Source: Natrinema halophilum (GTDB lineage: Archaea; Halobacteriota; Halobacteria; Halobacteriales; Natrialbaceae). From it: a DNA stretch of 56,996 bases. The notes under the pieces were generated by a model. It did no database searches. It saw only the letters and a program-made list of their open reading frames with translations, and was not told where the DNA came from. A program made the translations under genes and the position numbers. Position 1 is the stretch's first letter. Every line of letters begins with the position of its first letter. Shown one piece after another: positions 38,488 through 53,034 of this stretch. The stretch lies in NCBI RefSeq assembly GCF_013402815.2, contig NZ_CP084881.1:1-56996 (forward strand), given 5' to 3'.

Positions 38488-38819
38488 GGCGACACCACCT
38501 CACGTGGTGGCTGCGCGTCGACCGCCTGATGGATCCGTTTCAGGTTTGGCCGATTGATCCTCCAGGCGTTGCCAACGTTCGCATTGTACTCGCCACCAGC
38601 CCACTTGCAGACGACCCGATAGAGCTCCTCGAGATCGAGGTCCGGGAGGTCTACAGTAGTATCGTCTGGCTCGATTGCGACGGCGATACGGAAGACGTCG
38701 GCTTTAGTGAGCCCTCGCTCGGAGTCTACCCCGTATCGGGTCGGATCCCCACCGACGGTGTAAGCGATCTCTTCGCGTAACTCGCCGTTGGTAAGGTATT
38801 TCAGATCCTCGGCGGGCAT
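38484..38819 (-). CDS. Small protein upstream of the methyltransferase
   Basis: The 111-residue protein has a helical start (DLKYLTNGELREEIAYTVGG) and conserved-looking LTKADVFRIAVAIEPDDTTV. It overlaps the methyltransferase start by four bases. The ATG at 38819 is used because it follows the next stop directly. Function unknown. Confidence 0.55.
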   Translation of the reverse strand: MPAEDLKYLTNGELREEIAYTVGGDPTRYGVDSERGLTKADVFRIAVAIEPDDTTVDLPDLDLEELYRVVCKWAGGEYNANVGNAWRINRPNLKRIHQAVDAQPPREVVSP

Positions 38820-43498: not shown

Positions 43499-43815
43499 TA
43501 GGCACCCACCTCCTTCGACAGGATGTCGTGACCATCATCGGCCCAGCGCTGGAGTGTATCTGCCCGCTCGCGAACGTGTTCTCGAAGACAATCGGCTTCG
43601 GCCTCGCGGGTATCGTGTTCACGCCCGCAGTCCGGACAGCAGAGCGTCTCGAACGCTTTCTTCTCGAGGAGACCCTGGCGGAGTTTGGAAGCGTGCACGC
43701 GGCTGGAGGCGGACGGCTGTCGCGTACTGGTGGTGTTGTGGGTGCCGGCAAGCTTCGACGATGGCTCGATTTCCTCACCGTCAGGGGTTACGAGTGTCGG
43801 GTTCCAGCCTGCCAT
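43498..43815 (-). CDS. Zinc-finger protein
   Basis: The 105-residue protein has CCPDCGREHDTREAEADCLR at about residues 58-77, a C-x-x-C-x(n)-H/C zinc finger, with a coiled-coil-like C-terminus. The stop and start join the next genes without a gap. Confidence 0.6.
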   Translation of the reverse strand: MAGWNPTLVTPDGEEIEPSSKLAGTHNTTSTRQPSASSRVHASKLRQGLLEKKAFETLCCPDCGREHDTREAEADCLREHVRERADTLQRWADDGHDILSKEVGA

Positions 43816-44231
43816 TAGGCATCACCCGCGATTTCCGCCACTGCGTCGTCTTCATCGAATTCGAACACCTGCGACGAATCTGTCTCGATCTCAAACCGCT
43901 CCTCGAGGTCCGAGATGCACTTGACTAACGCATTGAAATGCTCGCCTGGCTCGATGTGGTGGCCACGATCGCCAAGCTCAATCACATCGTGCTTGTCCAA
44001 TTTCGGAAGATGTGTTTGGTAGAGCGTGACGTATGCTCCCTTTCGATCGATATCGGAGATCGCTGCGAACGCATCAGCGAGCACTTTCAGTTCCATCGGT
44101 CCGAGTGCGTCGATGAGCTCGACAGCCAACCGCCGGCGCTCGTTGCTCATCAGATGTACCGCTGCATCGAGCGGAAGGTCGGACCGCACTGGTTCATCAC
44201 GGAAAAGGTCCCGAAGGAATGTGCGGATCAT
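43815..44231 (-). CDS. Haloarchaeal winged-helix protein (DUF7344-like)
   Basis: The 138-residue protein has a helix-turn-helix pattern typical of small haloarchaeal regulators: AAVHLMSNERRRLAVELIDA, then DRKGAYVTLYQTHLPKLDKH, and a GDRGHHIEPG-type wing. It overlaps padR by four bases. It may regulate the operon together with PadR. Confidence 0.65.
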   Translation of the reverse strand: MIRTFLRDLFRDEPVRSDLPLDAAVHLMSNERRRLAVELIDALGPMELKVLADAFAAISDIDRKGAYVTLYQTHLPKLDKHDVIELGDRGHHIEPGEHFNALVKCISDLEERFEIETDSSQVFEFDEDDAVAEIAGDA

Positions 44232-44803
44232 GCGTCATCCCCTCGAGAAACCTGCTCCTCGAGCCAACTGAGTTCGTGCTGCAGCACCCGACGGCCAGGC
44301 TCGGTGATCGAGTAGTTATTCGTGCGACGGTCGCGGCTCCCCTTCTCGATCAGACCGAGATCGACCAGTTCATCGAGGTTCGGGTAGAGGCGACCGTGGT
44401 TAACCTCTTTGCCGTAGTAGGACTCGAGTTCGTCTTTGATCCCGATGCCGTGCCGGTCTTGGCAGGCGACCGTAGCCAGTGCCCGAATTTGGAATTTCGT
44501 TAGCTCGCCGGCTATGGTCTGGACGTCCTGGCCCGTTCCGATCTCGGTGCCGCCATCCGTCAGTGCGATTCTCGTGTCGGCCGGTCGACGGCTACCGGTG
44601 GCGTTTTCATGGTTCGGTGCTGAACTGTTCTCTTGACGAGGGCCAGGCCGTGGACATCGCCTCGTCGTTTCTGCCGCGTGCTCGCGCGGTAGCGATTCGT
44701 CTTCGTTAGTGACGTCTGCGTTCTGATCATGGTCGTCCGAACGACCAACTGTCCAACTCTCGATGGGGTAATCGTTTTTAACCCCGTTGTTGTTGTCATT
44801 CAT
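44228..44803 (-). CDS. PadR-family transcriptional regulator
   Basis: The first 95 residues are disordered and acidic (with an ALTDGG motif); the last 95 match PadR: LTKFQIRALATVACQDRHGI, LESYYGKEVNHGRLYPNLDE and LVDLGLIEKGSRDRRTNN. It heads the long overlapping operon at 35.6-44.8 kb. Its mRNA leader contains the three-way-junction structure (44832-44895) and an alternative hairpin near the start codon, and its promoter shares the nested operator with the PhiH1-type repressor. It is probably the main early/middle regulator. Confidence 0.85.
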   Translation of the reverse strand: MNDNNNGVKNDYPIESWTVGRSDDHDQNADVTNEDESLPREHAAETTRRCPRPGPRQENSSAPNHENATGSRRPADTRIALTDGGTEIGTGQDVQTIAGELTKFQIRALATVACQDRHGIGIKDELESYYGKEVNHGRLYPNLDELVDLGLIEKGSRDRRTNNYSITEPGRRVLQHELSWLEEQVSRGDDA

Positions 44804-44900
44804 GACTTCTGAAATCCCTTCCAGTGGGATTGGAAGTCAATCTCGGGGTGGCCTAACACCCCGAACCTTTGCAGGTTCTGGCGAGACTGACTTCCCATCT
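44804..44900 (-). promoter_or_regulatory. Structured leader of padR: three-way junction and alternative hairpin
   Basis: In the minus-strand RNA, GGAAGUCA-G-UCUCG pairs with CGAGA-U-UGACUUCC (12 of 13 pairs) as a closing stem (44895-44888 and 44886-44882 with 44845-44841 and 44839-44832). Inside are GAACC-UGCAAA-GGUUC and GGGUG-UUAGGC-CACCC. The 3' half of the closing stem can instead pair with UGGAAG (44823-44818) or with GAAGUC directly before the AUG. Such mutually exclusive folds resemble a riboswitch or attenuator. A protein-binding operator with the same symmetry is also possible. Confidence 0.55.
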
Positions 44901-44935
44901 ACAGTGAGTAATTCGACTGACTAATACTTTTCCCA

Positions 44936-44978
44936 CCAATAACGGGATGCCTACCGTTATAAACGGGATATTTATTGG
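44936..44978. promoter_or_regulatory. Nested operator between padR and the PhiH1-type repressor
   Basis: CCAATAA (44936-44942) and TTATTGG (44972-44978) enclose ATAACGG/CCGTTAT (44939-44945, 44954-44960) and CCGTT-ATA-AACGG (44954-44966). A TATA-like ATATTTATT for the plus gene overlaps the right half; AAGTATTAG to the left is the likely minus TATA. This is the divergent control region for the two regulators. Confidence 0.65.
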
Positions 44979-45014
44979 TCAGTAGCGTGATTTGATCCGT
45001 ATACCGGTGTACAT

Positions 45015-45332
45015 ATGAGTCCTGTTTGCCCAGTTAAGCGCGAGATGCGCCAGCCGGCGGAGTGGATGAGGTTGCCTGCTGATGACCGAATCCTTGAGCT
45101 GATGTTTGATGAGGGGAACATGACGCCTCGCGCTCTGTCCCGTGACGGGGACGTTCCCCGAATAGATATCAGTCGAGACTACGCTGGCGATCGGTGCCGC
45201 AAGCTTACGGAGTATGGGCTCCTTGAACGTCTTGATCGAGGTCTCTATCGCCTTACAGACATAGGCGAAGCTTATCTGGAAGGCGATCTCGACGTAGATG
45301 AGCTTGACCCTGTCGACGATAGCGGCGAGTGA
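45015..45332 (+). CDS. PhiH1 repressor-like winged-helix protein
   Basis: This 105-residue protein matches the PhiH1 repressor-like pattern: EWMRLPADDRILELMFDEGN, DISRDYAGDRCRKLTEYGLL, ERLDRGLYRLTDIGEAYLEG. It faces padR across the operator at 44.94-44.98 kb, a natural genetic switch. It probably keeps the lytic genes off in the episomal state. An internal ATG at 45045 would also keep the domain intact. Confidence 0.85.
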   Translation: MSPVCPVKREMRQPAEWMRLPADDRILELMFDEGNMTPRALSRDGDVPRIDISRDYAGDRCRKLTEYGLLERLDRGLYRLTDIGEAYLEGDLDVDELDPVDDSGE

Positions 45333-52018: not shown

Positions 52019-52461
52019 CACGCATCGCCTCCGTCACGTTTGTGGTCTTCGTGGGCTCTGACGTACGCGTCGAACCGGCGCTTTGCTTCGTCGTGGGTCA
52101 GGACCTCCCAGCCGGTTTTGTGGAGATCGTCCTTTGCGACGTCGTAGGAAACGAACTGTCGGTGGCGGCCGGACCGAGTTCCGAAATCAACGCGGTCGAT
52201 CGCGCCGTAGTCCGTCCGGCAGATCGAGGTGGCCTTGCAGTCGCCCTCTGCGTAGAGCACGAGCGTCTCGTCGCAGTGCCGTCGAACGTGGTTGATAGCG
52301 TTCAGCCAGTCACTGCCCTTCATTTCGTCTTTTGAGCGCTTTCCACGGATGAATTCGAGGACGCGCTGGACCGTCACGCGGCCGTTTGAGACGGACTCGA
52401 GCAACCGCTCGACGTCGTCCGAATCGTTCGAAACGTCCTTAGGTTGGTATGTCGTAGACAT
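52018..52461 (-). CDS. First gene of the right-hand zinc-finger operon
   Basis: The 147-residue protein (ATG at 52461) starts MSTTYQPKDVSNDSDDVERL. It has a helix-rich core (VTVQRVLEFIRGKRSKDEMK; SDWLNAINHVRRHCDETLVL) and a basic second half (RTDYGAIDRVDFGTRSGRHR). The 100-residue upstream extension of the frame is random-looking. It sits behind the symmetrical promoter at 52556-52615 and may be a DNA-binding protein. Confidence 0.6.
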   Translation of the reverse strand: MSTTYQPKDVSNDSDDVERLLESVSNGRVTVQRVLEFIRGKRSKDEMKGSDWLNAINHVRRHCDETLVLYAEGDCKATSICRTDYGAIDRVDFGTRSGRHRQFVSYDVAKDDLHKTGWEVLTHDEAKRRFDAYVRAHEDHKRDGGDA

Positions 52462-52555
52462 CGTTGGTCTTCTCCAAGACCGAGGTCGGGTGTTGATGGC
52501 ACCCGGCCGGCTTTTTGCCGACGTCCCTCGGCCTCTACTACCATCTACAATCCCG

Positions 52556-52638: not shown

Positions 52639-53034
52639 ATGAGTACAGCAACCGATCCACCAATGGAATATCAGCCGGACGACGTCGAGGAAGACGTCCT
52701 TGAAGTCATTCGATCGGAAGGAAGAGTCAACCCGCTGCGTGTGCGTGAACAGACCGATCACCGCAAACAGTACGTGAACGACGCGTTTCGGCAGTTGCAG
52801 AAGCTCGGAATCGTTCAGAAAGTGAACAGAGGATTATACGAATATGTCCCAGAAGAGGACGATCTCCCGGGTGCGCCTGAGATAGATGATCATGATCAAC
52901 GGATCATAGAAGTCTCTGCTGCACTCGACGACATCGACGCCGCATTCGAACGGGGAGACCCAGACGCGGCACGCGCAGCGCTCGAGCGTGCCCAAGAAGC
53001 GATCTCCGACGGTGATACCGATGCAGACCACTAA
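52639..53034 (+). CDS. Winged-helix regulator
   Basis: The 131-residue protein has a winged helix at about 15-70 (LEVIRSEGRVNPLRVREQTD; VNDAFRQLQKLGIVQKVNRG) followed by a helical hairpin repeat (FERGDPDAARAALERAQEAI), similar in layout to PhiH1-type regulators. It is divergent from the 52461 gene and probably binds the operator between them. The stop overlaps the next gene by 14 bases. Confidence 0.75.
   Translation: MSTATDPPMEYQPDDVEEDVLEVIRSEGRVNPLRVREQTDHRKQYVNDAFRQLQKLGIVQKVNRGLYEYVPEEDDLPGAPEIDDHDQRIIEVSAALDDIDAAFERGDPDAARAALERAQEAISDGDTDADH

Follow-up and report, generated by a model that had tools for sequence, protein, structure and literature searches.

A putative translational switch leader RNA upstream of padR in a phiH/phiCh1-like halovirus

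Many haloarchaeal mRNAs lack leaders and Shine-Dalgarno sites and, to our knowledge, natural switching leaders have scarcely been described in archaea, least of all in this group. Plasmid leaders such as CopT/CopA, RNAI/RNAII and pT181 are highly structured, carry a U-turn-like loop and control a regulator or replication-type gene, and YUNR loops are known in antisense systems. In the halovirus phiH, Stolt and Zillig reportedly made an antisense observation in 1993, concerning the T1 leader and T(ant), and left its mechanism open. The annotated phiH1 record places the start of the mapped early lytic transcripts T1-T3 at 38582 and a PadR-like CDS from 38733. On the other strand, facing the T1 leader, it puts the antisense start of T(ant) at 38732, a single base ahead of the PadR start. 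According to a review of the phiH work, antisense-bound T1 is susceptible to host RNases that remove its ribosome-binding site (PMC4284463).

The padR leader and its two alternative folds

The window, that is, the whole 56,996-base contig analyzed here, encodes a large terminase subunit that is 77-80% identical to its counterparts in Halobacterium phage phiH and Natrialba phage PhiCh1, and we therefore regard it as a phiH/phiCh1-like phage-plasmid. The leader sits between padR (44803-44228, minus strand; 191 aa, PadR domain at residues 109-175) and a divergent winged-helix regulator (45015-45332, plus strand), a homologue of the phiH1 repressor RepR with 42% identity. A DUF7344 ORF (43815-44231, minus strand) lies 3' of padR and is probably coupled to it through an ATGA overlap with the padR stop. 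The segment 44925-44985, between the divergent promoters, carries AACGGGAT repeats and a CCAATAA..TTATTGG palindrome and is a likely repressor operator candidate.

The sequence-only reading of this locus had proposed a three-way-junction leader on the minus strand, and the prediction held: 44804-44900 folds into a junction P1-P2-P3 with a minimum free energy of -46.7 kcal/mol and a z score of -5.2 to -5.4. None of 200 shuffles was as stable as the native strand, and the plus-strand fold is a little weaker (-43.4). On the minus strand, the closing stem P1 pairs GGAAGUCAGUCUC (44883-44895) with GAGAUUGACUUCC (44832-44844). Its length of 13 bases was read correctly, but the single mismatch first proposed is absent, as all 13 pairs are standard, one of them G.U. 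Likewise, P3 (44845-44862, minus; GGGGUG-UUAGGC-CACCCC, with YUNR at the loop start) has the six-base loop initially ascribed to both hairpins, whereas P2 (44863-44878, minus) is better described as a 6-bp stem with the GNRA tetraloop GCAA. GAAA and GNRA-like caps are frequent in the family.

The 3' strand of P1 is common to both alternative folds. Its GACUUCC is complementary to GAAGUC (44804-44809, minus), a third strand that abuts the padR AUG, and we call this alternative helix P1'. Hairpin P4 (44813-44831, minus; AAUCCC/GGGAUU) is located between the two alternative pairing strands and is kept in homologues with compensatory changes; when the 3' part of the leader was folded alone, P1' and P4 formed one hairpin (z -3.1). 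The start-codon strand GAAGUC is conserved, in contrast to the other partner suggested at first, UGGAAG in the P4 loop, which is not conserved in homologues.

Two more elements of the minus strand, spanning 44731-44785, fall within the first 25 padR codons, where structure constrains the coding sequence. P5 (44765-44785) is a GGGG..CCCC palindrome or hairpin in the first codons, seen in the homologue alignment. P6 (44731-44746), a hairpin over codons 20-25, shows compensatory changes in five homologues and occurs in type A only.

Homologues, covariation and strand exchange

Three leaders with 75-77% identity were found by blastn in 149 related genomes, and a fourth through a PadR search. Together with the window they make five virus or provirus leaders. 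All of them contain the two alternative folds and the invariant AAGTCATG, and compensatory changes are seen in P1, P2 and P4. One of the ORFs (G080) has kept its N-terminus and lost the PadR domain, so conservation of the leader does not depend on PadR. No useful match came from a near-identity BLAST that compared the leader region with phages and plasmids, and a PadR protein scan of viral contigs gave no matches. A strict DNA pattern run on genome contigs was set aside, since most of its matches were due to chance, in bacteria; the real ones were limited to those in Natrinema gari and Natrarchaeobius chitinivorans, which were already known, L159 (identical in sequence to the G164 copy) and L060, a viral contig (the same as the G080 copy).

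We built covariance models from the five leaders (R1), from 70 copies (R2) and from 97 copies (R3), whose E-values are rough. Of 125 genomes scanned in the family, R1 detected copies in 77, with E-values down to 2e-14 and up to about 20 copies per genome, and R2 and R3 detected them in 60 of the 95 genera sampled of one haloarchaeal order and in 128 of the 391 genomes of a class sample, all of these genome and genus counts being lower bounds because the large scans scored about ten candidates per genome. No copies were found outside this order: 393 genomes drawn from across the phylum gave 27 positives, each of them a member of it. Copies number in the hundreds, in haloarchaeal viruses and chromosomes. 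The initial remark that such leaders are hardly known in viruses of archaea thus understated the case, as the element is a haloarchaeal family that is mostly chromosomal in the sampled genomes.

The window copy, which belongs to the R3 training set, matches R3 over its full length (87.7 bits, E 3e-19). The same virus probably has a second, divergent copy of the leader at 52459-52537 (minus; R3 cmsearch E 0.009, fold z -4.1), in which the AAGACC preceding the AUG pairs with GGUCUU. This copy precedes a 147-aa gene and is divergent from a winged-helix gene (52639-53034, plus). Several further copies lie on the host chromosome (G000 C1), for example at 4269951-4270055 and 3430843-3430945. Rfam 15 has no family that matches the window (the best hit, a flavivirus element, reached 18.6 bits against a gathering threshold of 50, E 0.95) or twelve other loci of the leader, and no description was found in the mostly open-access literature that was searched. 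We rate the padR leader as a new, previously unnamed RNA family, either riboswitch-like or antisense-controlled.

For the final alignment, one copy without an AUG (L258) and the antisense-strand matches were left out. The 97 aligned copies were fitted to the structure, which favors pairing scores, yet the margins are very large: in the junction, standard pairs fill 94.4% of 2619 pair cells, changes on both sides occur in 25 of 28 pairs, including covariation at all 13 pairs of P1, and double-changed cells number 399 versus 124 in shuffles. The covariation score was 0.444 versus 0.174 when shuffled, and fell to 0.10 or less when the 3' partners were slid. P2, P3 and P4 combine a predicted fold with covariation in the same way. 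Among wobble cells, G.U prevails over A.C (176 versus 65), which favors the minus, or sense, strand as the RNA.

As the register of P1' varies between copies, we took, without fixing the register, the highest-scoring helix that the final 9 nt of P1 can form with the 11 nt preceding the AUG, in each of 35 distinct strand combinations. The mean score was 13.7 versus 9.98 +/- 0.38 for permuted pairs, and 0 of 2000 permutations scored as high. The start-codon strand changes along with the P1 3' strand over many different helices, among them GACUUCC/GAAGUC, GGCUUCC/GAAGCC, GGAUUCC/GAAUCC, GGUUUCC/GAAACC, GGUCUUCC/GAAGACC and GGGUCGUUU/GACGACCC. In copies from other families the P1 sequences are quite different, and the strand before the AUG matches each time. 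Covariation in homologues, the check set beforehand, was therefore passed by the junction and by the mutually exclusive start-codon hairpin alike.

In silico, the 6 nt before the AUG were unpaired to a mean of 0.76 in the free leader and of 0.13 when the P1 5' strand was blocked, and this block produced switching in 80 of 96 copies. In most leaders P1 exceeds P1' in stability by 7-14 kcal/mol, so a strong trigger would be needed. In one copy (L198), P1 and P1' are not mutually exclusive in the predicted minimum free energy structure, and some type D copies have only 3-4 bp of P1' left.

Promoter, start codon and downstream genes

A BRE/TATA-like sense promoter, GGAAAAGTATTA (44922-44935, minus), lies 27-31 nt before P1. 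Across 96 copies the TATA signal peaks at -30 to -27 relative to P1, and the sense-promoter matrix peaks at the expected place in the window (8.1 bits). This position predicts that the RNA starts within a few bases of P1, at about 44896-44898 in the window, far upstream of 44832, which the sequence-only reading had named as the limit for its leader.

A second ORF of at least 50 aa starts no more than 12 nt from the stop of the leader ORF in 76 of 94 copies (45 of them as an ATGA overlap), compared with 12-34% for shifted starts. This coupling shows that the AUG after the leader is translated, and we rejected the view that it is a mere part of the RNA motif. In type A copies, including the window, the AUG begins an N-terminal extension that is fused to a regulator; otherwise it begins a leader ORF of 31-50 codons.

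The downstream genes encode PadR, DUF7344, CPxCG zinc-ribbon, SWIM-type, tyrosine recombinase and TnpB-like proteins, and the commonest neighbor is a divergent RepR-like winged helix (34 of 96 loci). Many type B copies (L192, L221, L241 and others) are chromosomal and precede small CPxCG...CGC zinc-ribbon ORFs, which are coupled to a leader peptide M(I/F)xxxLPGYK(R/H)PAR. Four copies (L202, L206, L249 and L259) precede short TnpB-like proteins that start directly at the RuvC-like segment, the one at L202 having a Cas12f1-like TNB domain. Another four (L277, L279, L295 and L296) precede a tyrosine recombinase/integrase gene, which suggests a use in integrative elements.

The proposed switch, its trigger and known systems

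Taken together, the folds, their covariation, the coordinated strand exchange, the TATA position and the ORF coupling, all read from the DNA itself, argue for a conserved translational switch leader, and we consider it probable that a cis-acting leader RNA switches translation of the padR operon in this phiH/phiCh1-like halovirus. Transcription would begin at the P1 5' strand, and during RNA synthesis the P1-P2-P3 junction would fold first and leave the start codon open (ON). A trigger that binds or opens the P1 5' strand would release GACUUCC of the 3' strand, which could then pair with GAAGUC by the AUG and form, with P4, one long hairpin burying the initiation region (OFF). We infer that exchange between P1 and P1' controls translation, that ON is the default and, as the favored option, that an antisense RNA is the trigger.

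For this trigger, our best lead is an antisense RNA of the phiH1 T(ant) type, encoded in cis, which would be produced under immunity; a small molecule or a protein is possible too. A T1/T(ant)-type mechanism, in which an antisense RNA with its 5' end at the start codon would base-pair with the leader, making first contact at the P3 loop, is a serious though tentative candidate, and so is its second part, in which the pairing triggers RNase cleavage and/or the OFF hairpin. Both would specify the trigger within the switch described above. The position of the T(ant) start in phiH1 and the antisense-dependent cleavage of T1 reported in the review (PMC4284463) are in line with it. Of 97 P3 loops, 51 open with YUNR, as opposed to about 15 after shuffling, which fits an antisense contact loop. 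A TATA-like motif is also present on the antisense strand at one fixed offset that would put the start at the AUG (mean 2.52 bits versus a background of -12.6), and the best-scoring antisense TATA-like site of phiH1 has the same offset. In the window, the family scan and the phiH1 geometry point to TTTTTAA (44775-44781, plus) as a candidate antisense TATA box, which weakly places a T(ant)-like start at about 44803-44806.

Against this, the antisense transcript is known from phiH1 alone, and near-identical P3 hairpins in 10-20 copies per genome make cross-talk possible. The forward strand is also TATA-like near the same offset (mean 0.62 versus 2.52 bits), so the motif may serve other ends, and we treat it as a lead and not as proof of a promoter. 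The same control weakened P5, the palindrome in which the motif lies, as evidence for an antisense promoter, and P5 may have another role. A broader claim is possible, if speculative: haloarchaea and their viruses would share a large class of two-state leader RNAs, each with its own start-codon antisense transcript, of which phiH T1/T(ant) is the one studied relative. Equally tentative, and tied to these paired transcripts, is the view that in this class an antisense RNA that binds would turn the junction into a lock on the start codon.

A riboswitch-like leader that binds a small molecule or protein, with the junction as aptamer and P1/P1' as expression platform, is possible, and we would not lean toward it. 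The 5' leader does contain a conserved, covarying, aptamer-like junction, with a GNRA-capped P2 and a P3 loop of conserved C..A/U..G closing letters, and a mutually exclusive helix in which the P1 and P1' strands compete by the AUG. However, the downstream genes (regulators, zinc-ribbon, integrase, SWIM and TnpB-like) share no common pathway, the junction nucleotides are not strongly conserved, and neither the window nor the twelve other loci has an Rfam match. An RNA thermometer or salt-responsive fold without ligand is unlikely. Two competing folds near the AUG, in hosts exposed to variable salt, speak for it, but of these folds the open one is the more stable (about -42 to -50 kcal/mol), the reverse of what a melting thermometer would show. 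The pure DNA-operator reading, with inverted repeats bound by PadR or RepR, is the least credible, for although there are three occurrences of GAAGTC, direct and inverted, and the phiH1 RepR homologue is divergent here and in many other copies, 28 positions in four helices covary, G.U exceeds A.C, the element persists without PadR or RepR (G080 and chromosomal type B copies), and the repeat-rich 44925-44985 between the two promoters is a better operator candidate.

Statistical support for this RNA family, which occurs in many copies in a genetically tractable group, is strong, and the choice of P1 or P1' gives it a built-in prediction. The family further sets the 1993 phiH observation in context and ties it to lysogeny control.

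Like CopT/CopA, RNAI/RNAII and pT181, the padR locus combines a structured leader and a U-turn-like loop with control of a regulator or replication-type gene; unlike them it is archaeal, of unrelated sequence, and its antisense RNA is a candidate. With translational riboswitches it shares a closing-stem 3' strand that can instead sequester the start region, whereas it has no known ligand, common metabolic genes or Rfam class, and no evident Shine-Dalgarno-type site before the AUG. The closest relative is phiH1 T1 of Halobacterium virus phiH. Its leader is longer (about 150 nt), has other inner helices and is not found by R3, and while cleavage was shown there, a P1/P1' exchange is not described in the accessible literature. 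The layout of phiH1 recurs in PhiCh1, as GAGCAAGCG/CGCUUGCUC with GAGC-AUG, and PhiCh1 also has a weak R3 match (E 0.15) upstream of ORF49 with GUCUUC and GAAGAC-AUG. The two viruses are related, and by prediction and homology the padR leader, like T1, runs from the transcript start to the AUG of an early PadR-like gene. The mapped T1 RNA begins at AGAGCAGG, the closing-stem 5' strand, followed by the 3' strand CCUGCUC and then by GAGC-AUG, whose GAGC matches that strand; the antisense start adjoins the start codon, and a regulator is encoded divergently.
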